IMG/VR virus record: IMGVR_UViG_3300036830_000204
Span: 1-33,023 of that record
Strand: one strand, 5' to 3'
DNA from: a virus
DNA length: 33,023 bases
The position numbers and the translations under genes were made by a program. The notes under the pieces were generated by a model, which saw only the letters and a program-made list of their open reading frames with translations, searched no databases and was not told the DNA's origin. Every line of letters begins with the position of its first letter. Within the stretch, counting starts at the first letter, position 1. This document shows, one piece after another, positions 4,841 to 31,311 of this stretch.

Positions 4841-6163
4841 ATGGCACTCCCATTACCAAGAGTTGTTGCTGATGTCGGCCCCGGCGGTGGTATTGTGACT
4901 GCTGCGCGAGGTATTAATGCTTTGCGTGAAAGTGACTTAGACAATCAGATTAAAAAAGTTCAGGCACAATATGCTCCTTTGACGACACAAGCCGAAGCTG
5001 CATCAAAACTTGCCTATGCCAATTTAATGGCTCCTCAGTTTTTGTCAAAATTGATGGGACATCCTGAGATTTTAGCGAATATGTCGGAAGATCAAAGGAA
5101 TCAGGCATTAAAGATGATTTATAACGCTGGAACTGGTCAAGGAACTGGTGCCAATTTTATGAATAAAATGCCTCAATCGGGTGCTCAAGATGACTCGTTA
5201 TTTGGGATGTTGAAGAATAAACTGGGTTCTATTTTTAATCAAAGTCCACAACAAGGACAACAATCTCAAGCTCAAGCCCCCCAGAATGCATTAATGAGCC
5301 AACCACAACAACAGCAATTTAATCCTCAAGATGTTCAAGCTGCTGTACAGGCTTATCGAAATAGCCCAGAAGCACAACAGAAAGCGCAAACTGAGGGAAT
5401 GTTTACTATTCCAAATCAGAATGAATTAATGAATTGGTATAAACAGCAAGGAAATGCTCCTGTTGCCCAGCCAGCTATGGAAAAACCTGCTGTCACTTCA
5501 AAATCATGGCCTGAAAAATATGGTGAATTTAAAGGAATTGAAAAAGAAGGTGAAAAGCTAGGTGAATTACGTGCTGCTGCTATTGATGAATTTGGTGAGC
5601 AATATCAGCAAGCTATTCAGGCTGAACAACCTGTACAGCATCTAATGGATATGACTCAAAATCCCGTATTTATTAATATGCGGAACAAAATTCCATTCTT
5701 TCAGGATAAACAACTAACAGCATTAGCCAAATTGGGAACACCTGAAGAACAACGATTAGTCGGTGATTTTGTTACGACTGCAACCAATGCAGTAGCTAAT
5801 ACGGTTAATAATTTCCGTGGAAGAATTTTAGATAAAGAAATCACTATGGCAAATCAAATGAAGATTTCGCCAAATGATACGTGGAATGTCATGGTAGGAA
5901 AATTAGGTTCTATTGCAACTTTCAATGAGATGACTAAAGAGCGAGCTCGTATTGCTGGTCAACTTATGGAAAAGAAACACATGAATCGTGCAGATGCTGT
6001 TGAGAAAGCTGATAGCATGGTGGACGGTAAGGCTATTAGAAAGCAAATGGAAGGTAAATTAAATCCAAAACCATCTGATGCTGATATTGATTATATGGCT
6101 GAAAAATACAAGATTTCTGCTGATGAAGTTAGGAAAAGATTAAAAGCGAAAGGAATTTTATAA
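4841..6163 (+). CDS. Probable DNA ejection protein (gp20-like by position)
   Basis: A 440-residue helical protein. The N-terminus (MALPLPRVVADVGPGGGIVT) is followed by amphipathic helix (LDNQIKKVQAQYAPLTTQAE), a glutamine-rich linker at about residues 130-180 (QSPQQGQQSQAQAPQ), and a helical C-terminal half with many charged residues. P22 gp20 is 471 residues and is similarly low in beta structure. Such proteins are packaged in the virion and are thought to form a channel across the envelope. The stop overlaps the next ATG by one base (TAATG), so it is coupled to the third ejection-type gene. Confidence 0.65.
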   Translation: MALPLPRVVADVGPGGGIVTAARGINALRESDLDNQIKKVQAQYAPLTTQAEAASKLAYANLMAPQFLSKLMGHPEILANMSEDQRNQALKMIYNAGTGQGTGANFMNKMPQSGAQDDSLFGMLKNKLGSIFNQSPQQGQQSQAQAPQNALMSQPQQQQFNPQDVQAAVQAYRNSPEAQQKAQTEGMFTIPNQNELMNWYKQQGNAPVAQPAMEKPAVTSKSWPEKYGEFKGIEKEGEKLGELRAAAIDEFGEQYQQAIQAEQPVQHLMDMTQNPVFINMRNKIPFFQDKQLTALAKLGTPEEQRLVGDFVTTATNAVANTVNNFRGRILDKEITMANQMKISPNDTWNVMVGKLGSIATFNEMTKERARIAGQLMEKKHMNRADAVEKADSMVDGKAIRKQMEGKLNPKPSDADIDYMAEKYKISADEVRKRLKAKGIL

Positions 6164-14439: not shown

Positions 14440-14607
14440 TTAACGAATAAACATCTTTTTGGGTTTTATCTTTTTTGATTGATGTCCAAAAGATTTAGCA
14501 ATATCAATGGCCATCTGTGTAGCTTTACGCTCATGATGGCCAGTATATTTAATTTCTCTCATTGGCTTTGGTACCAATGGCCTACTCTTACCTAATATCA
14601 CACCCAT
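14440..14607 (-). CDS. Small basic hypothetical protein, opposite strand within the late region (55 aa)
   Basis: A 55-residue open frame on the minus strand: it begins MGVILGKSRPLVPKPMREIK and ends KPKKMFIR. The ATG (14607-14605) has AAAGG 6 bases upstream on the minus strand. The middle (YTGHHERKATQMAIDIAKSF) followed by a lysine-rich tail resembles the 'mhe-k-kQaiAiA-s-a-k' small basic phage proteins (compare the one at 27443). Such proteins could bind nucleic acid. It lies between two plus-strand genes, so it is transcribed against the late unit. Confidence 0.55.
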   Translation of the reverse strand: MGVILGKSRPLVPKPMREIKYTGHHERKATQMAIDIAKSFGHQSKKIKPKKMFIR

Positions 14608-14689
14608 AGATTACCTTTAATTATTTGACCAAATAAATTAAAATGATGATGTTTTCTTATTCACTTTCATTCAATAAGGATATTATACA

Positions 14690-14818
14690 ATGAAAAAAGA
14701 TAAATCTAAACATACTAAAAAATCTGCTAAGCACATGAAGAAAGAAAGCCCTAAACATGAAAAAGATGAAAAGAAAGAAATTAAAAAGTTATCTAAAATG
14801 CATAAAATGAAATATTAG
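14690..14818 (+). CDS. Very small lysine-rich protein (42 aa)
   Basis: A 42-residue protein, over 40% lysine, opening MKKDKSKHTKKSAKHMKKES. ATG 14690 has AAGGA 9 bases upstream, and a good terminator follows the stop directly. Such extreme basic composition suggests binding to DNA or RNA or to an acidic partner. No family is recognised. Confidence 0.6.
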   Translation: MKKDKSKHTKKSAKHMKKESPKHEKDEKKEIKKLSKMHKMKY

Positions 14819-14824
14819 TTGATA

Positions 14825-14857
14825 ACCGCTATTATTCATTGATAGCGGTCATTTTTA
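14825..14857 (+). terminator. Rho-independent terminator of the late region
   Basis: A perfect 8-bp stem (ACCGCTAT 14825-14832 with ATAGCGGT 14842-14849) has a 9-base loop and is followed by CATTTTTATTT. It follows the small lysine-rich gene and separates the rightward late genes from the convergent leftward genes. In the other direction the hairpin lacks a T-run. Confidence 0.82.
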
Positions 14858-14882
14858 TTTACATCTAATTTATAAAATAAAT

Positions 14883-15107
14883 TCATTGTTGAAATTTTTT
14901 TATCTGCTTAATACATTGATCACGTAATATCTCACCATGTAAATGCATTACATAACAACATTGTGCACGCGGATGTTGAGCAAATGTTTTATGGCATCTT
15001 TCGCATTCAATAATGGATTTTGAAATAATTAAACCTTCTGATGAGGTTTCAGTTGTAGTTGAAATAGAATTATGAAAACAAAATAACTGCTTTAATCGAG
15101 TTAACAT
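14883..15107 (-). CDS. Small zinc-ribbon-like protein
   Basis: A 74-residue basic protein, last gene of the leftward unit. It has cysteine/histidine pairs CFH near residues 10-12 and CERCHKTF at about 36-43, then HPRAQCCYVMHLH. The arrangement suggests a zinc knuckle, broadly like short phage proteins of the DUF1660 kind, but the spacing is not standard. Its start overlaps the previous stop by one base (TAATG). Confidence 0.6.
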   Translation of the reverse strand: MLTRLKQLFCFHNSISTTTETSSEGLIISKSIIECERCHKTFAQHPRAQCCYVMHLHGEILRDQCIKQIKKFQQ

Positions 15108-15391
15108 TATTTATTATCCGTAAATTCAATATCGGTAATCATGGGTTGTTTAGAAATAAATTCAATTATTGAATCAATAAATGAATTTACTTTAATTTCT
15201 ATTTCATTATTTCCTTCTGATGTTATTTTCATTAATTGAAATGCACATGTCAGATTTGCACTTAATATTAAATTAATTAAATCACTCGTATCTTCTTCTT
15301 TATCGGATAATTGCTTTAATAAGAATAAATATGATGTTTTGATTAATTCTTTTGATAATTCATTTGTAAGTTGTTTAAAATAATCATTCAT
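15107..15391 (-). CDS. Hypothetical helical protein
   Basis: A 94-residue, mostly helical, acidic protein opening MNDYFKQLTNELSKELIKTS and containing LINLILSANLTCAFQLMKIT. No motif is recognised. It is coupled at both ends: its ATG overlaps the stop of the zinc-ribbon gene upstream, and its stop overlaps the ATG of the next gene. It resembles the protein at 15513 in length and helical layout, so the two may be distant paralogues. Confidence 0.65.
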   Translation of the reverse strand: MNDYFKQLTNELSKELIKTSYLFLLKQLSDKEEDTSDLINLILSANLTCAFQLMKITSEGNNEIEIKVNSFIDSIIEFISKQPMITDIEFTDNK

Positions 15392-15516
15392 TAATAATAT
15401 CTCTTAAATAGTAATTTACATTTCATGCAACTAAAGTTCCCAGATGCAAAATTAAATTTGACTTTTTCTGATTTACAACCGGGACAAATAGTTTTTAGTT
15501 TAACTTTTCTGTTCAA
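15391..15516 (-). CDS. Very small zinc-ribbon protein, TTG start (41 aa)
   Basis: A 41-residue frame with two clean CxxC knuckles: TICPGCKSEKVKFNF, then GNFSCMKCKLLFKRYY. The TTG start (15516-15514) overlaps the stop of the upstream gene and has AGGAAAG a few bases before it. Its stop overlaps the next ATG (TAATG). The coupling on both sides and the knuckle spacing support a real gene. It is probably a nucleic-acid-binding or regulatory ribbon; partner unknown. Confidence 0.68.
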   Translation of the reverse strand: MNRKVKLKTICPGCKSEKVKFNFASGNFSCMKCKLLFKRYY

Positions 15517-15830
15517 TTCAACTTTCCTTTTTCTTCAACAGAATCTAGCATTTTCATCATGGTTTTATGATGACTTAATAATAATTTCTCCATGCTAATG
15601 TCATAACCATTCATTCCTTTGAATAAAGTTTTACAAGTTGTTAGCATGTTTCCATCTAATACAGCTAATGTAGCAACAATAATATTAATTACTGTATCAG
15701 TATCAATTTGTTTTGGATCGCCTTTTGAAACAATATTTAATTGACGTGTTAATTTACGTTTCATAAAGGCAAATGTGTCTTTAGAAATAATGGTACATAT
15801 ATCTTGAAATTGTTTATCGGATAATTTCAT
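15513..15830 (-). CDS. Hypothetical helical protein
   Basis: A 105-residue protein. ATG 15830 is preferred over an upstream TTG because AAGGA sits 6 bases before it. It opens MKLSDKQFQDICTIISKDTF, with further helices VINIIVATLAVLDGNMLTTC and LLLSHHKTMMKMLDSV. The VINIIVATLAVL stretch is hydrophobic but short and flanked by acidic residues, so a buried helix is more likely than a membrane span. Family not recognised. Confidence 0.65.
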   Translation of the reverse strand: MKLSDKQFQDICTIISKDTFAFMKRKLTRQLNIVSKGDPKQIDTDTVINIIVATLAVLDGNMLTTCKTLFKGMNGYDISMEKLLLSHHKTMMKMLDSVEEKGKLN

Positions 15831-15839
15831 TAACAATCC

Positions 15840-16220
15840 TTAATTAATAATAATGGGATGAATAGTATGCTGATACTTTAAATCAAATTTTTCGTAATGC
15901 TTGGTATCTTCAAGAAGAAGATAATCTGAATTATAATGGCCTTGATTTGGTATATCCAATCCACATTGAACATTAATCCAATCAGCAAGATTATAGGCAT
16001 CAGCATATGGAATATTTAATTTTTCCGAAACATAATCACCTGATTTGACTCTTTCCATATCAAAGAAGAATGCACCTACTCTTTCTAATGCGACAAATAA
16101 TTTTGAATGGATAAAAAATGAAATTAATTTGAATTGTGTGCCATTACCAAGATTAATAAACTTAACTACAGGTTTTTCATTGACAATAATCTTTTTCCAA
16201 ATAACTTTTACTTCACTCAT
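15840..16220 (-). CDS. Hypothetical protein
   Basis: A 126-residue mixed alpha/beta protein (MSEVKVIWKKIIVNEKPVVK; later RVGAFFFDMERVKSGDYVSE and YADAYNLADWINVQCGLDIP). ATG 16220 is chosen because GGGAG lies 8 bases upstream; an earlier in-frame TTG overlaps that site. Its leader shares a 12-base block (TTGGGAGTTACA) with the gene starting at 18904. No known family is recognised. Confidence 0.65.
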   Translation of the reverse strand: MSEVKVIWKKIIVNEKPVVKFINLGNGTQFKLISFFIHSKLFVALERVGAFFFDMERVKSGDYVSEKLNIPYADAYNLADWINVQCGLDIPNQGHYNSDYLLLEDTKHYEKFDLKYQHTIHPIIIN

Positions 16221-16430: not shown

Positions 16431-16805
16431 TTATTTCATAATTTCCCAATCATTACTGCATAGACATTTAAAGGTTGGCATAAACTCATACTCAACCTGT
16501 CTACACATCGCCAAGTTGCCATTATCCACAAAGATAAACGAATCTAGTGTTTCATCACGGGTAATAGCTTTCTTTTGTTTCAACTCTTCTAATGCTTCCA
16601 AGAAAGAAAGTTTTCTACCATCACCATCTACTACTAACCAATCTTTGGAAAGTAGTAGGTTGGCATTACCATAGAAAGAAATGTTCTCACCCCGAAATGT
16701 TTTAATCGCATCATTAATCAGACGCAAATGCATGTAGGGTTCCCATTCCTTGCGTCTAATCTTTTTACCTGCTAACAATTCCTTGTGCGCTTTATCGAAA
16801 TTCAT
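16431..16805 (-). CDS. Tandem Tad2-like (DUF2829) protein, putative anti-Thoeris factor
   Basis: A 124-residue protein. The N-terminal half (MNFDKAHKELLAGKKIRRKE, then LSKDWLVVD) follows the DUF2829/Tad2 pattern: 'F--A---l--Gk-irR--W ... dll--DWevv'. Tad2 proteins sequester the cyclic ADP-ribose signal of Thoeris defence. The C-terminal half repeats the pattern (FLEALEELKQKKAITRDE, then FIFVDNG, then SNDWEIM), so the protein appears to be two fused Tad2-like domains, at residues ~2-60 and ~67-123. The second copy lacks the usual Trp after the Arg. ATG 16805 is chosen because the site AGGA is 9 bases upstream and MNF is the usual family start; an ATG 6 bases earlier is also possible. Ligand binding is inference. 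Confidence 0.72.
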   Translation of the reverse strand: MNFDKAHKELLAGKKIRRKEWEPYMHLRLINDAIKTFRGENISFYGNANLLLSKDWLVVDGDGRKLSFLEALEELKQKKAITRDETLDSFIFVDNGNLAMCRQVEYEFMPTFKCLCSNDWEIMK

Positions 16806-16823
16806 TTTCATTTATCCTGTCAT

Positions 16824-17303
16824 TCAGAATGGTATAGAATCATTTATAAACTCATCTGCTGGCTTACCAATCACATTGGACTTGCCAATGATATAATCCT
16901 CAATTACATTCTTATCAGGATATTTGGAACCTACTGGTTTACCATTTAGCTTATCAAAAGGTATTTCATTACCTTGCTGAGTTTTAACCTTAACTCTTAC
17001 ATGTTGGTTAGAAGCATCTTCTGGTGTAAACTTTTCATCCAGATATAGTTGTTCCTGACCAGAAGAGTCGCAGAAATGTTTTAATTTCCATAACATCTTC
17101 TCAGTGAAAACTAAAAAGTCCCTTATATCATGCGCATTACCTGCTTTGTCAAATACTGCAAGTGTCATATCAGCCATCACATTATTGGATTTGGACAGAG
17201 AACGGGTGGCAACTTTCACCACCGCGTCATATTCACCGTCTTCCAGAAGATTAAATCTTGCCTTCATCACATCTTCTTCATTTAGTGCTTTGTATAAACT
17301 CAT
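16824..17303 (-). CDS. Probable single-stranded DNA-binding protein (DUF669-like)
   Basis: A 159-residue protein. The core (FNLLEDGEYDAVVKVATRSL, then MADMTLAVFDKAGNAHDIRD, then FLVFTEKMLWKLKHFCDSSG) resembles DUF669 phage proteins that sit beside Sak4-type ATPases. The C-terminal tip FINDSIPF resembles the acidic DDDIPF tail by which SSB proteins recruit partners. Its start overlaps the stop of the Sak4-like gene by four bases (ATGA), a sign of paired production. Known Sak4 proteins are stimulated by a cognate SSB. DNA binding here is inferred, not shown by a recognisable OB-fold signature. Confidence 0.72.
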   Translation of the reverse strand: MSLYKALNEEDVMKARFNLLEDGEYDAVVKVATRSLSKSNNVMADMTLAVFDKAGNAHDIRDFLVFTEKMLWKLKHFCDSSGQEQLYLDEKFTPEDASNQHVRVKVKTQQGNEIPFDKLNGKPVGSKYPDKNVIEDYIIGKSNVIGKPADEFINDSIPF

Positions 17304-18151
17304 GCTGCTTCTCCTTGAATAGTAGATTTAAGATATTGAATGCATTTTTCCATTGCTTCCCGTGGCATTTCTGACCATTCTTCGGCAGAAGCCTTACTTT
17401 TCCACTTGCTATATACTTCCTCTGGTGTTTTAAGTAATTCGATTAATCTGGTTAGCTCTTTTACTTGTTCAACGGTAGCTAATTCCTGTGGTTTAGCATC
17501 ACGTTCTAATACTTCTCTTCCAAATCGATTAGCAATTTCATCATAACTAAATGGAAATGTATCAGTATCAGGGAATGTCTCAATACGTGACTTCTTCACA
17601 ATTCCAATACGTTTATCCCCACGTTTCTGTATTTCAAATACTAAATCAAACAAGTAATCTAACTTCTTGTAGCAATCAAAGGTTTGGCCTAATACCGCCA
17701 GGTTCTGACCATATTCATTCTTACTATGTGAGGTGATGATCACATTCATGTCTATGCGAAAGAGCAGGTTAAGCAACTGTTTCATGCGCTTATTGGCTTC
17801 ACCATAATGTCTGCCAAACTCTGTTCCTACTTTCTTCTCCGCCTTCTCTAATAAATCATTGTAAAGGTTAGTCAATGAATCAATGACCAATGTCTTATAA
17901 TCATGCTTGATGGTCAGCAATTGCTTTAACTCATTGACCATTTCCTCAAAATCTACTGTCATGAGTACCACACCACTGGCCTTATCAATTGCTTTAACAT
18001 ATTGAGGTTTGTTGGTAGAACCTTCTGTATCAATGATGTAGGGCTTCGGAAATTGTATCGCTGCCATTGTCTTACCCACACCTGCTGATCCATAGAATAA
18101 AGCTTTTAATCTTTGTTCTATCATTGCTGGTTTCTTTGCTCGTAAAGCCAT
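17300..18151 (-). CDS. Sak4-like RecA-family ATPase
   Basis: A 283-residue ATPase. The Walker A motif GSAGVGKT is at residues 21-28 and Walker B TLVIDSL at about 87-93, with IIDTEGS (39-45) and the sensor-like VIITSHSK at 137-144. This is the shortened RecA-core layout of phage Sak4 single-strand annealing proteins. ATG 18151 is chosen because AGGAG lies 8 bases upstream; an upstream TTG overlaps the site. It is co-translated with the SSB-like gene. The pair would promote annealing and recombination during phage replication. A general phage AAA/RecA-like 'nucleotide-binding protein' label would be the cautious alternative. Confidence 0.8.
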   Translation of the reverse strand: MALRAKKPAMIEQRLKALFYGSAGVGKTMAAIQFPKPYIIDTEGSTNKPQYVKAIDKASGVVLMTVDFEEMVNELKQLLTIKHDYKTLVIDSLTNLYNDLLEKAEKKVGTEFGRHYGEANKRMKQLLNLLFRIDMNVIITSHSKNEYGQNLAVLGQTFDCYKKLDYLFDLVFEIQKRGDKRIGIVKKSRIETFPDTDTFPFSYDEIANRFGREVLERDAKPQELATVEQVKELTRLIELLKTPEEVYSKWKSKASAEEWSEMPREAMEKCIQYLKSTIQGEAA

Positions 18152-18178
18152 GTTATATACTCCTATCAAATGTTGTGC

Positions 18179-19435: not shown

Positions 19436-19609
19436 TTATGATACCAAGACATCACTTGATGTCAACTTATTTTCACACTTTTTTTTATATTTTTCTAAAC
19501 AATCATTGATTAACTCTTGAAGGGACATATCTCGATCAACTGCTCTTTTTTTAAGAAAAGACCACGTTTGTCTATCTAATCGCAAAGTAAGAATTTTCCT
19601 ATCTTGCAT
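19436..19609 (-). CDS. Ribbon-helix-helix regulator (57 aa), first gene of the leftward unit
   Basis: A 57-residue protein opening MQDRKILTLRLDRQTWSFLK, then KRAVDRDMSLQELINDCLEK. The ILTLRLD strand and the two helices fit the ribbon-helix-helix fold. ATG 19609 has AGGAGAG upstream; longer in-frame starts extend into the promoter and are rejected. It resembles the next gene in layout (strand-W-helix-helix), so the two may be paralogues. Being first behind a promoter that carries a palindrome suggests self-regulation. Confidence 0.74.
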   Translation of the reverse strand: MQDRKILTLRLDRQTWSFLKKRAVDRDMSLQELINDCLEKYKKKCENKLTSSDVLVS

Positions 19610-19642
19610 TCTTTCTCTCCTGTTATTGATGTATTTATATAT

Positions 19643-19679
19643 AATAAGTAAAGATATCACTTGCTTATTAAAATGACAA
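19643..19679 (-). promoter_or_regulatory. Leftward promoter with overlapping operator-like palindrome
   Basis: On the minus strand, TTGTCA (19679-19674) and TATCTT (19656-19651) are 17 bp apart, a good sigma-70 pair, which would start transcription about 35 bases before the first regulator. An inverted repeat (AATAAGTAA at 19643-19651 and TTGCTTATT at 19661-19669, 8 of 9 positions matching) covers the -10 and spacer. On the plus strand TATAAT lies at 19640-19645 but lacks a matching -35. Confidence 0.6.
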
Positions 19680-19688
19680 GGAGTCATC

Positions 19689-19808
19689 ATGGAAAAGTAT
19701 CACCAATACAGTGCCATCAAAAGAATAATTGATGAATATTTTAATATGAAGGATGATAAGAAATATGAAGATTTTATTAAGAAATTAGTTATGATACTGG
19801 GGATATAA
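19689..19808 (+). CDS. Small leader-position protein (39 aa)
   Basis: A 39-residue protein, ATG 19689 behind AAGGAG, first gene on the rightward side of the divergent control region. It reads MEKYHQYSAIKRIIDEYFNM and ends IKKLVMILGI. It is mostly helical and charged. A strong terminator begins 8 bases after its stop, so it may be the only product of a short transcript unless termination is overcome. Function unknown. Confidence 0.62.
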   Translation: MEKYHQYSAIKRIIDEYFNMKDDKKYEDFIKKLVMILGI

Positions 19809-19842: not shown

Positions 19843-19922
19843 GTTATTCCATTAACGATTATCAAGGCAATTTTAAAGGACTTGCACGGATTTGCAAAGA
19901 CTTTTTGCCTTCTGGAGTAAGA

Positions 19923-20249
19923 ATGAAACCGATTGCCCCTCAAGGGGAATGGCTAAGAGATAGGCTTTTAGCTGATCACAAAGAAATCATTTTTATTTTT
20001 ATGGGGACTAAAGCCGAAGAGCGAGCAAGAGGCTTCCTGCCTGAGCTTCCTTACACGATATACCTTCCGTTCAGAACTTCCCCTTATGCCTATACATGGC
20101 CAGTCAATGGCTGTGAGGTTTATCTCACTGATACTGATTTATCTTCAGGATTATTTTTAAAAACATTTGTGATGTGCCTGTTCATGCATGGCGCAACGCT
20201 TATTCATTACTTATCCAAAAAATATTCTCAAACATTCAGAAGGAGCTAA
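19923..20249 (+). CDS. Hypothetical protein upstream of the helicase
   Basis: A 108-residue protein with ATG 19923 behind TGGAG. It opens MKPIAPQGEWLRDRLLADHK and contains EIIFIFMGTKAEERARGFLP and a C-terminal hydrophobic helix (LKTFVMCLFMHGATLIHYLS). The stop is 3 bases from the helicase start, with the helicase's ribosome site inside the 3' end, so the two are one unit. No family is recognised. It could assist helicase loading by position, but there is no motif for that. Confidence 0.62.
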   Translation: MKPIAPQGEWLRDRLLADHKEIIFIFMGTKAEERARGFLPELPYTIYLPFRTSPYAYTWPVNGCEVYLTDTDLSSGLFLKTFVMCLFMHGATLIHYLSKKYSQTFRRS

Positions 20250-20251
20250 CA

Positions 20252-21274
20252 ATGCATAAGGATGCCGATAATTCATTTATATTTTCAGAAGAAGAAATCG
20301 AAGCAAAACGCAAATCCCATAATATCACGCCAATTAAGCCTATTAAACAGATAGAACCTTTGACAATGGAGATGATTCAGCTTGAAAACCCTCCTCCAAA
20401 GCAATATGCGCTTTATCCTATTCTACCCGTGCAAGGTATTGCATTAGTTTTTGCAGCGGCTGGAGTAGGAAAGACTATGTTTACACTTAATCTTGCCTAT
20501 GCCATTGCAGGTGGAGGCAATTTTCTTGGATATACTGCTCCCAAGCCACGCAAGATACTTTATATCGATGCAGAAATGGCCTATGTGGATATACACAGTA
20601 GACTTATGCAAATCTCAGTACAGCAAGGAAAACTCGACATTCCTGGTAATTTTTTCATATATACGCCCGATAGAATGATGGCAAAAGATGAAACCATTCC
20701 AATTCGTATGCCAAAAATATGCTCGCCAGAAGGACAAGCATTTTATTCAGATGTAATTGAACGTCACAACATTGATGTCATAGTTTTTGACAATCTTTCC
20801 ATGCTAACTACGGTTAATCTTGATACAGGGGAAGATTTGCATTTATTTACAGATTGGCAGCTACATCTGCGTGCCCGTGGAAAGACTATGATCAATGTAC
20901 ATCATGCAGGTAAGGACAAAAATGGTTATCGTGGATCATCAAAGCTAATTGACCATGTTGATACAGCCATTTCTCTTCAAGCCATTGATGATTCACTTCC
21001 TGAAAATGCTGATGATTCTCTTATGGGAAAACGTTTCAAGGTAGTTTATCAAAAAAATCGTTCCTTTTTTGGCAAAGAATCTCTTCCTTTTGAAGTGACT
21101 TTTCATAATGAGAAATGGTCATGTCGAACTATGGAGAAATCAGAAATGGAAAGAGTAGTCGAAATGGTCAAGCTCGGAATGAATCAAGTATCTATATCCA
21201 AAGAACTTGGATGTGGTCAGTCAAAGATAGCTAAACTCATCAAGAAAGCACGCGGCTTTAAGCTCATCGACTAG
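20252..21274 (+). CDS. RepA-like hexameric replicative helicase (AAA_25 family)
   Basis: A 340-residue ATPase with ATG 20252 behind AAGGAG. The Walker A motif AAAGVGKT is at residues 68-75, a strand with KILYIDAEM at 101-109, Walker B VIVFDNLS at 176-183, and the RepA-type motif VHHAGKDKNGYRGSSKLID at 216-234. This is the layout of RSF1010 RepA-like replicative helicases, which unwind DNA at the origin. The C-terminus (MNQVSISKELGCGQSKIAKL) is a helix-turn-helix that may bind DNA, perhaps the repeats directly downstream. It is the only replication enzyme recognised; polymerase and primase would come from the host. Confidence 0.85.
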   Translation: MHKDADNSFIFSEEEIEAKRKSHNITPIKPIKQIEPLTMEMIQLENPPPKQYALYPILPVQGIALVFAAAGVGKTMFTLNLAYAIAGGGNFLGYTAPKPRKILYIDAEMAYVDIHSRLMQISVQQGKLDIPGNFFIYTPDRMMAKDETIPIRMPKICSPEGQAFYSDVIERHNIDVIVFDNLSMLTTVNLDTGEDLHLFTDWQLHLRARGKTMINVHHAGKDKNGYRGSSKLIDHVDTAISLQAIDDSLPENADDSLMGKRFKVVYQKNRSFFGKESLPFEVTFHNEKWSCRTMEKSEMERVVEMVKLGMNQVSISKELGCGQSKIAKLIKKARGFKLID

Positions 21275-21299: not shown

Positions 21300-21529
21300 T
21301 GGAATAATCACTCACAAAAACCCTCTTGAGCCCAATATCCACGGGCTCTCCAGCATTATTCCACCACTGGAATAATCTTGGAATATTCTTGGAATATGGA
21401 ATATTCCATTATTCCATTATTATTCCAATTTTATTCCATTTTTATTCCATGGAATATATATATTAATCATATAGTTATAATATATTATTCCATTTATATA
21501 ATTGCCCAGGGGGGGGTTGGAATATTCCA
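21300..21529. other. Iteron array, probable replication origin
   Basis: Fifteen copies of TGGAATA (either strand) lie in 230 bp directly after the helicase gene. Plus-strand copies start at 21300, 21368, 21379, 21390, 21397, 21450 and 21518. Minus-strand copies start at 21357, 21402, 21410, 21421, 21432, 21443, 21486 and 21523. Most of the central copies are 11 bp apart and mirror one another around a 12-bp palindrome at 21397-21408. An AT-only stretch (about 21453-21489) and eight consecutive G (21509-21516) follow. A GC-rich hairpin (21328-21333 with 21343-21348) precedes the array. Iterons beside the initiator and an AT-rich unwinding segment are typical of origins. No gene is present here. 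Confidence 0.78.
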
Positions 21530-21682: not shown

Positions 21683-21895
21683 ATGCTTAACCGATCATGG
21701 AAAGATCAAAAATTGTACATTTGTGACATGATGAGGCAAATCTCGGATCATTATGGTGGAGATGATATAGAATGGCTTAGAGATTATGCTAAGTTGATTA
21801 TTGAACAGCATAAGGATGATTTCTCAAAGGCTATCTCATGCTTCGAGGATTTGCTGGAACAAACTAAGTACGCAAGGAGGCCATGTTCTACATGA
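21683..21895 (+). CDS. Hypothetical protein
   Basis: A 70-residue helical protein with ATG 21683 behind GAAGGA, reading MLNRSWKDQKLYICDMMRQI, then DDIEWLRDYAKLIIEQHKDD and FEDLLEQTKYARRPCST. It is acidic in the middle and basic at the end. Its stop overlaps the next start by four bases (ATGA). It is first in a short unit leading to the VRR-NUC nuclease. No family is recognised. Confidence 0.62.
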   Translation: MLNRSWKDQKLYICDMMRQISDHYGGDDIEWLRDYAKLIIEQHKDDFSKAISCFEDLLEQTKYARRPCST

Positions 21896-22089
21896 AACAT
21901 CCATCGGAGTTAGAGGCGCAGTATGCGTGGCAACGCAAAGGAAAGAAGTATAAGACGAAATACTTTGCTGCATTAGGACAATTATTTGGAGATGAAAGCC
22001 ATGACAAGGAATGTCAGGTTGAAACCAATAGCCACCGAGGATCAAGAACAGATCAAGCTGGCTACTTGGATGACAAAGCAAGGAATTAG
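21892..22089 (+). CDS. Hypothetical protein overlapping the nuclease start
   Basis: A 65-residue frame with ATG 21892 overlapping the previous stop and AAGGAGG 11 bases upstream. The first ~36 residues (MKHPSELEAQYAWQRKGKKY, then KTKYFAALGQLFGDESH) look like real protein. The rest runs in another frame through the first 89 bases of the nuclease gene and looks like random sequence. It may be a genuine short protein with a long overlap, a frame-shifted former N-terminal extension, or a frameshift product joined to the nuclease. Confidence 0.45.
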   Translation: MKHPSELEAQYAWQRKGKKYKTKYFAALGQLFGDESHDKECQVETNSHRGSRTDQAGYLDDKARN

Positions 22090-22381
22090 GTTTTATGCCA
22101 TACCCAATGGAGGGAAACGAAATCTATTAGAGGCGGTCAAATTGAAGCGTATGGGCACGATGCCTGGAATACCTGATCTATGTATACCCATTCCTTCAGG
22201 ATCGTACCACGGGCTTTATATTGAGCTTAAACGAGAAAAGGGTGGAAAGGTCTCTGAATCTCAAGCTGATTGGCTTGCATTCTTGAGAGAAAAAGGGTAT
22301 TACGCACAGGTTGCAAAAGGATTCGAGGAAGCAAGGGAGATGATAGTTCATTATTTCAGCTTTACTAGACCCGCTGCATAA
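22001..22381 (+). CDS. VRR-NUC domain nuclease
   Basis: A 126-residue protein with the complete VRR-NUC layout: TEDQEQIKLATWM (12-24), FYAIPNGGKRN (31-41), GIPDL (56-60), IELKRE (74-79), and SESQADWLAFLREKGYYAQV (85-104). The presumed metal ligands are D59, E75 and K77, with Q88. VRR-NUC proteins in phages cut branched or flap DNA, including Holliday-type junctions. It would resolve replication or packaging intermediates. ATG 22001 is chosen because GGAG is 9 bases upstream. Its start overlaps the preceding frame by 89 bases. Confidence 0.85.
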   Translation: MTRNVRLKPIATEDQEQIKLATWMTKQGIRFYAIPNGGKRNLLEAVKLKRMGTMPGIPDLCIPIPSGSYHGLYIELKREKGGKVSESQADWLAFLREKGYYAQVAKGFEEAREMIVHYFSFTRPAA

Positions 22382-27361: not shown

Positions 27362-27442
27362 GTGATGAATGCTTAAACGATGGATGATGATATTTGTTGG
27401 TTAGGTAAAGATGGAAAACTTTATTATTACTCGGAGGTTTTT

Positions 27443-27595
27443 ATGCCATTGGTCAAGGGAAAGAAAGCAAGTAGCAAAAAAGGGTTCAGCGAAAATATTA
27501 AACGTGAAATGCATGAAGGCAAGCCACAGAAACAAGCTGTTGCGATTGCTTATTCAGAAGCACGTCGTGGAAAGAAAAAAGGTAAAAAGAAATAA
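27443..27595 (+). CDS. Small basic protein (DUF6496-like)
   Basis: A 50-residue protein, about one third Lys/Arg, with ATG 27443 behind CGGAGG. It reads MPLVKGKKASSKKGFSENIK, then REMHEGKPQKQAVAIAYSEA and ends in a run of Arg/Lys. The 'vMhe-k-kQAiAIA-seA' motif is frequent in small phage proteins of the DUF6496 kind, of unknown role. A frame extending to ATG 27380 exists but has no ribosome site. Its stop overlaps the next ATG by one base. Confidence 0.68.
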   Translation: MPLVKGKKASSKKGFSENIKREMHEGKPQKQAVAIAYSEARRGKKKGKKK

Positions 27596-31265: not shown

Positions 31266-31311
31266 TAGTTAGGAATAAACTATTCCTAACTACTATTCCA
31301 GGATGGAATAG
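31266..31311. repeat. Two adjacent palindromes with the iteron core GGAATA
   Basis: TAGTTAGGAATA (31266-31277) and TATTCCTAACTA (31281-31292) are perfect 12-bp arms. CTATTCCA (31293-31300) and TGGAATAG (31304-31311) are 8-bp arms around GGA. The heptamer TGGAATA is the same as in the origin array at 21300-21529. A short GC hairpin (31313-31316 with 31324-31327) follows before the scaffold gene. Confidence 0.6.

Follow-up and report, generated by a model that had tools for sequence, protein, structure and literature searches.

The SaPI Rep and SCCmec Cch2 proteins read, by means of a C-terminal domain, iterons that lie directly downstream of their own genes, and SaPI Rep apparently binds as two hexamers (PMC7581432). 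The winged helix of phage P4 alpha binds origin repeats (PMC4234260), and SV40 large T antigen is a helicase that recognises its own origin, with two opposed hexamers at neighbouring positions (PMC9894130). In RSF1010 the iterons are read by a separate protein, RepC (PMC4234260, PMC8965321). For the Vibrio PLE RepA_N initiator and its ori, covariation between the DNA-binding domain and the origin iterons was described, along with their exchange as a module (PMC8263062). A RepA-like helicase of Lactococcus phage F13, GP46, was demonstrated to unwind DNA in the 5'-3' direction; neither an iteron nor a C-terminal domain of GP46 is mentioned there (PMC8965321).

The window (the whole 33,023-bp stretch of viral DNA analysed here) harbors an array of short repeats at 21300-21529, next to the gene of a RepA-like helicase. 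A preliminary description of this DNA knew of no described phage origin of this form, which was too strong a statement, as SaPI Rep and Cch2 with their C-terminal origin-binding domain and downstream iterons, as well as the P4 alpha winged helix, were already known. The open-access literature searched did not yield any account of a RecA-fold helicase that carries an origin-binding helix-turn-helix (HTH). Like SaPI Rep and Cch2, the window encodes a replicative helicase to which a DNA-binding domain is attached at the C-terminus, an attached domain being found in P4 alpha as well, and has short iterons directly 3' of the gene. However, SaPI Rep and Cch2 are of the DUF927 or D5/Primase_Cterm type and Cch2 works 3'-5', whereas the window protein combines an AAA_25/RSF1010-RepA RecA-fold motor (presumably 5'-3') with a small tri-helical HTH. 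P4 alpha, a primase-helicase with a winged helix, binds origin repeats, as is proposed for the window helicase, but it is a larger fused protein with a Toprim primase and a different helicase family. The best reading, by analogy, is that the window system would work mechanistically like SaPI Rep, Cch2 and P4 alpha, although it is not a member of these families, as its motor is a RecA-fold RepA-type helicase. F13 GP46 is also a phage RepA-like helicase, of 298 aa. The Vibrio PLE system shares the covariation of DNA-binding domain and iterons and the module exchange, yet RepA_N is an initiator without helicase activity that uses few, ~30-bp semi-palindromic iterons. SV40 T antigen resembles the proposal made below in being a helicase that recognises its own origin, but belongs to the eukaryotic SF3 helicases, has its DNA-binding domain at the N-terminus and shows no homology to the window protein.

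A RepA-type helicase with a C-terminal HTH

The proposed self-targeting initiator is a RepA-type (AAA_25, RecA-fold) helicase of 340 aa, counted from the ATG at 20252 (20252-21274, plus strand). Its core matched Pfam AAA_25 (E=4.5e-23), and only AAA_25 and DnaB/KaiC-like matches were obtained, none of the D5, Primase_Cterm or DUF927 type. The PDB sequence match was RSF1010 RepA (1g8y, E=4e-7) and the top Foldseek matches were 1olo, 1g8y and 1nlf (best 1olo, E=2e-9); the nearest solved relative, by sequence and by fold, is the hexameric RSF1010 RepA. From its homology the window helicase is presumably a hexamer with 5'-3' unwinding activity. In the AlphaFold2 model the core was obtained with modest confidence (pLDDT 68), and the C-terminal tri-helical HTH (residues 298-335; 21143-21256, plus strand), with helices at 298-307, 312-319 and 323-335, reached a pLDDT of about 87. 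The third helix is the recognition helix (21218-21256, plus strand). The domain was also recovered by PDB matches of the window helicase (2w48, 7bhy) and by Pfam HTH matches in its relatives, and these last ~40 residues resemble SorC/DeoR-type HTHs. RSF1010 RepA belongs to the same helicase fold family (1g8y), and RSF1010 also has iterons and hairpin sites by its origin. However, RSF1010 RepA is without an HTH: its match extends to profile position 258, whereas the HTH lies at profile positions 289-328. Where RSF1010 has a separate iteron-binding protein, the window helicase carries an HTH of its own, which covaries with the iteron word. No primase partner of the window helicase was identified; in the related contig L008, a 62-aa frame (5504-5692) resembles a stand-alone CHC2-type primase zinc finger, which we take to be a possible missing primase part.

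The iteron array and its grid in related phages

All fifteen TGGAATA heptamers that had been noticed in 21300-21529 are exact copies at the reported positions. Seven lie on the plus strand (starts 21300, 21368, 21379, 21390, 21397, 21450 and 21518) and eight on the minus strand (21357, 21402, 21410, 21421, 21432, 21443, 21486 and 21523), in two facing arms. An outlying plus copy (21300-21306) is found at the same place in L008, 21 bp after the stop codon. The left edge is formed by an outward-pointing minus copy (21357-21363) in the same 11-bp register as the left arm; its position and orientation are kept in relatives, a feature not stressed before. The left arm (21368-21396, plus) consists of the three iterons at 21368, 21379 and 21390, and the right arm (21410-21449, minus) of the four at 21410, 21421, 21432 and 21443, with 11-bp spacing in both. 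Between the arms lies the palindrome TGGAATATTCCA (21397-21408), which is made of two overlapping opposed iterons and of which a second copy is present at 21518-21529. As described earlier, the arms mirror each other to within one base, with every right-arm site displaced by exactly 1 bp from where mirroring around the TGGAATATTCCA centre would place it. An outward-pointing plus iteron (21450-21456) closes the right arm and is followed by the AT-only stretch (21453-21489, AATATATATATTAATCATATAGTTATAATATATTATT, not assigned to a strand), a proposed DNA unwinding element, and by the distal iterons at 21486 (minus) and 21518 (plus)/21523 (minus), with the 8-G run (21509-21516) between them (21486-21529). 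Multiple short repeats and an AT-rich region beside an initiator gene, as in iteron origins, are thus present, whereas the tandem, single-orientation form typical of plasmid iterons is not. Elsewhere in the window, a stray opposed heptamer pair, TATTCCA-N3-TGGAATA (31294-31310), lies just 3' of the portal gene and might be a short hairpin or due to chance.

Across the whole 33,023-bp record TGGAATA occurs 28 times, compared with 8.5 expected. Within 320 bp after the helicase stop codon the top 7-mer has 15 copies, whereas the best 7-mer reached a maximum of 6 copies in 500 dinucleotide shuffles and of 4 in 201 other segments of the record. A chance cluster or a simple tandem repeat without function was considered, as a scan of the viral collection for phased TGGAATA triplets returned 12 loci and the reversed, scrambled heptamer used as control also returned 12, so that three-copy 11-bp tandem runs alone are background. 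However, loci with many copies in both orientations were obtained only with TGGAATA (L008, L009 and L013) and none of the control loci had both orientations; together with the copy number, the conservation in L008 and the same-place arrays in every relative, this leaves a chance origin a negligible probability.

Helicase homologues were obtained from viral-contig scans (L008/L031, 63% identical to the window helicase; L029, L030, L055/L058, L056, L057, L133 and L134, 45-49%), and L155 was added through a terminase-based scan, in which just three of 79 new loci had a homologue detectable by the window helicase profile. All members of the family are metagenomic viral contigs. Scans of genome collections revealed no prophages or named hosts carrying a related system, and named phages and plasmids gave distant helicase matches only; no clear array followed the gene in seven such regions (Vibrio, Roseobacter, Gordonia and Streptomyces phages, Manatee Spring phage and two plasmids).

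The search for such arrays beside RepA-like helicases in other phages, proposed in the preliminary description, was positive in every relative examined: in all ten helicase relatives, as in the window, a two-orientation 7-mer array lies directly downstream of the helicase stop codon. Eight different iteron words were found in all, namely TGGAATA (window, L008), TGAATCA (L029, L133), TGAATAA (L155), GGTAATC (L030), GGGTACT (L055/L058), GGTTAAC (L056), GGTTAAG (L057) and GTGTACA (L134). The copy number of the top 7-mer ranges from 7 to 15, above the 6 and 4 copies that were the most seen in shuffles and control segments, and in none of seven records checked does the word cluster elsewhere. Of the nine loci tested first, the window among them, 8 had an AT box of 37-56 bp, and the L155 array has an AT-rich run too. 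Between the window and L008 the heptamers and the AT box are kept, while the palindrome, including its plus half, the G run and most spacer bases are not. The central palindrome and the G run, which had been listed as array features, are hence not conserved, L008 having neither, and mirror symmetry with a central palindrome was rejected as a defining feature.

Site maps (position and orientation) were then compared, with a single shift and a single strand choice for the word allowed and with spacings and orientations permuted in 300 trials. Within 1 bp, the window grid matched 9 of 11 sites in L008 and 8 of 10 in L057 (each reached in 0/300 permutations), 8 of 13 in L056 (1/300), 6 of 12 in L134 (2/300), 7 of 9 in L055 with the word read on the other strand (5/300) and 6 of 8 in L030 (23/300). 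L133 matched the window only at 2-bp tolerance (7/11, 10/300), but shared 7 of 9 sites with L055, which has an unrelated word, at a tolerance of 1 bp (0/300). Seven of the 12 sites of L155 matched the L133 grid (0/300); neither L155 nor L029 fitted the window grid. The common grid consists of an outward minus copy, two to three plus copies at 11-13 bp, a gap, three to four minus copies at 8-12 bp, usually an outward plus copy, and the AT box. Absence of conserved spacing in relatives had been named beforehand as an observation that would speak against the origin; instead, the spacing and orientation grid is largely kept despite changed words. A protein assembly of fixed geometry would need such a grid, which supports the helically phased two-arm structure suggested earlier.

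Arrays of short repeats in two orientations are also known as ribbon-helix-helix (RHH) operators and centromeres. The array might accordingly be an operator or a partition site, bound by the HTH or another regulator, for control of downstream genes or segregation of a plasmid-prophage. Promoter-like matches occur in the region, but no more of them than expected, and no ParA-type gene was present in the subset of window proteins scanned. The array adjoins a replicative-helicase gene and an AT box, its phased facing-arm layout is conserved, many RepA-like helicases have arrays in the same placement, and a similar one is found at the unrelated VirE/D5-like primase-helicase of L034. Together these observations make an operator or partition site very improbable.

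Covariation of the iteron word with the recognition helix

Judged from the sequences of the family, the iteron word tracks the HTH recognition helix and not the helicase core. Among nine helicases (36 pairs) just two pairs share a word, and these rank first and second of the 36 in identity over residues 320-334 (0.93 and 0.87; next 0.60), whereas in the core they are 0.59 identical, less than several pairs whose words differ (up to 0.66). L055 and L057, with different words, are 0.66 identical in the core and 0.20 in the helix. The helix of L155, MSQPTVHRMIKKAKK, is close to that of L029/L133, ISQ[P/S]TVNRLIKKA, and its word TGAATAA is one base from their TGAATCA. In an exploratory comparison by eye, residue 323 is Gln in five loci whose word contains AAT and Arg or Glu in four whose word does not. 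The cleanest switch was observed in L168 and L203, which belong to the same terminase-defined family but to a sister class of RepA-like helicases with a different C-terminal domain, not to the window's own class. Their cores are identical at 314 of 322 positions (97.5%) and their C-terminal domains at 57 of 73 (78%; Fisher p=9e-8 for core vs C-terminal domain), and the flanking genes are 93-98% identical. All iterons are switched (7990-8330 of L168 and 7988-8330 of L203), with ten copies of ACGGACA in one array and eleven of ACCGACA in the other, and neither word occurs in the array of the other phage. The preliminary description had suggested the helicase or its C-terminal HTH as the protein that binds; the covariation of recognition helix and word supports the HTH as the probable reader.

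These data bear on the alternative that the array is an origin whose iterons are bound by a separate initiator, i.e. the RHH-like protein (19436-19690), the 70-aa protein encoded downstream or a host protein, with the helicase only being recruited, as RepA is by RepC in RSF1010. Some RHH proteins bind short repeats, and the RHH-like gene lies nearby; moreover, RSF1010, the source of the nearest solved helicase, uses the separate RepC (PMC8965321, PMC4234260). However, the word follows the recognition helix of the helicase, and the differences between the L168 and L203 helicases lie mostly in the C-terminal domain. The contact strand of the RHH protein is nearly the same in the window (RKILTLRL) and in L133 (RKTLTLRI) though their words differ, neither the RHH nor the 70-aa protein gave a match in the phage of L056, and so frequent a change of word among related phages would not be expected if a host protein were the reader. 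No RepC-like protein was present among the window proteins scanned. A separate initiator is thus regarded as unlikely.

A candidate bidirectional origin and its genomic setting

That an origin lies next to the RepA-like helicase, as had been proposed, is strongly supported by comparison, i.e. by the same-place arrays, most of them with an AT box, and the kept grid. The array is likely to be the bidirectional origin of a phage with a P22-type portal, with the replicative helicase encoded just upstream acting as initiator through its own HTH. Following the covariation, the C-terminal HTH would bind the 7-bp iterons, which, being one helical turn apart in two facing arms, would gather helicase subunits on one face of the DNA and give rise to one or probably two oppositely oriented rings. 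The adjacent AT box would then melt and the RecA-fold rings would load on the exposed strands, leading to bidirectional forks. Head-to-head loading of two hexamers, which had been suggested from the sequence, is plausible, being compatible with the facing arms and with the examples of SaPI Rep and SV40 T antigen. Speculatively, the start might be completed by the phage SSB and by a primer, made perhaps at a hairpin, GAGCCC-AATATCCAC-GGGCTC (21328-21348, no strand assigned), which some of the relatives have kept, on one strand or the other. This hairpin, with its loop AATATCCAC, recurs in L008, in L030 and L155 on the opposite strand, and in a weaker form in L029; L008 and L155, the latter read as reverse complement, have 23 identical bases. 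Its role as primer start, by analogy to the ssi sites of RSF1010, is speculation. It was also considered as an intrinsic terminator, but the terminator scan gave no match there, and an Rfam search returned nothing.

The cumulative GC-skew minimum of the window falls at 21506, inside the array, but is confounded by a switch in gene strand about 1.5 kb upstream, and the same applies to the course of the skew, which runs from about -0.2 to about 0 in the helicase gene and becomes positive beyond the array. A minimum near the array was found in one of six relatives (G026).

We lean towards regarding these loci as an undescribed class, in which RecA-fold RepA-type helicases with a small HTH or winged helix attached would read a phased facing-arm grid directly downstream of their own gene. 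The geometry would be kept largely constant, probably by two opposed rings, and recognition helix and iterons would switch in concert. As helix and iterons would change words together, closely related phages would carry mutually incompatible origins. The family would then be a minimal one-protein answer to how a RecA-fold ring helicase is placed at an origin without a separate initiator or loader, and the fixed grid with changing words could serve as a ruler for the number and placement of the rings. Helix and iterons that covary, including the near-isogenic pair one iteron base apart, are naturally occurring data from which HTH-DNA specificity, and shifts in origin specificity between related phages, can be studied. 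For origin prediction in unannotated phages, it suggests looking just 3' of RepA-like helicase genes.

Upstream of the helicase, the window encodes a 112-aa protein (19911-20249, plus strand) with homologues in some relatives and, on the minus strand, a replication/recombination module with an SSB-like protein (16824-17303; phrog_378, E=2e-7) and an AAA_24 recombinase-like ATPase (17300-18169), of Sak4 type by resemblance. Just downstream of the array lie the genes of the 70-aa protein (21683-21895, plus), conserved in most relatives but without a match in the phage of L056, and of a VRR-NUC nuclease (21986-22381, plus), a conserved neighbour; the record also carries a P22-like portal and terminase. 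In several closer relatives the terminase is 62-85% and the portal 68-76% identical, compared with 45-48% for the helicase. VRR-NUC is also more alike than the helicase among several of them, and the 71-aa protein encoded at 27380 is 77-98% identical. In other family members (L168, L203 and L215) this locus is occupied by another RepA-like helicase and the array that goes with it. With conserved neighbours around different helicases and arrays, helicase and origin behave as a co-diversifying, exchangeable unit; from these comparisons they appear as a fast-changing cassette in otherwise well-conserved phages.

The 71-aa protein (27380-27595, phrog_2423) reaches 98% identity in G025, whose helicase is 48% identical. 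Beyond the minus-strand module, a protein with a Tad2-like (Thoeris anti-defence 2) domain is encoded at 16431-16811 on the minus strand (Pfam PF11195, E=6e-10), and the DNA at 14500-16000, at the junction of structural genes and minus-strand early genes, is very AT-rich (about 26% GC).

A set of 36 non-redundant, distant RepA-like phage helicases, whose C-terminal domains are of other kinds, contained 16 with an array at p<0.01 within 350 bp after the stop codon, where 0.4 would be expected; the window system thus appears as one branch of a wider theme of helicase plus downstream array. No RepA-like helicase and no matching HTH motif was found in L009, L013 and L034, which are unrelated phages with two-orientation TGGAATA arrays; as the L034 array follows a VirE/D5-like primase-helicase, the shared word reflects how those loci were found. 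In this unrelated phage of 65% GC (L034 147-358; L132 2404-4461), the VirE/D5-like primase-helicase gene is followed by an AT stretch and by TGGAATA in eight copies, which lie in both orientations. In L009 (3498-3705) and L013 (8336-8635), two-arm TGGAATA arrays surround AT-rich DNA near D5-like primase-helicase genes.
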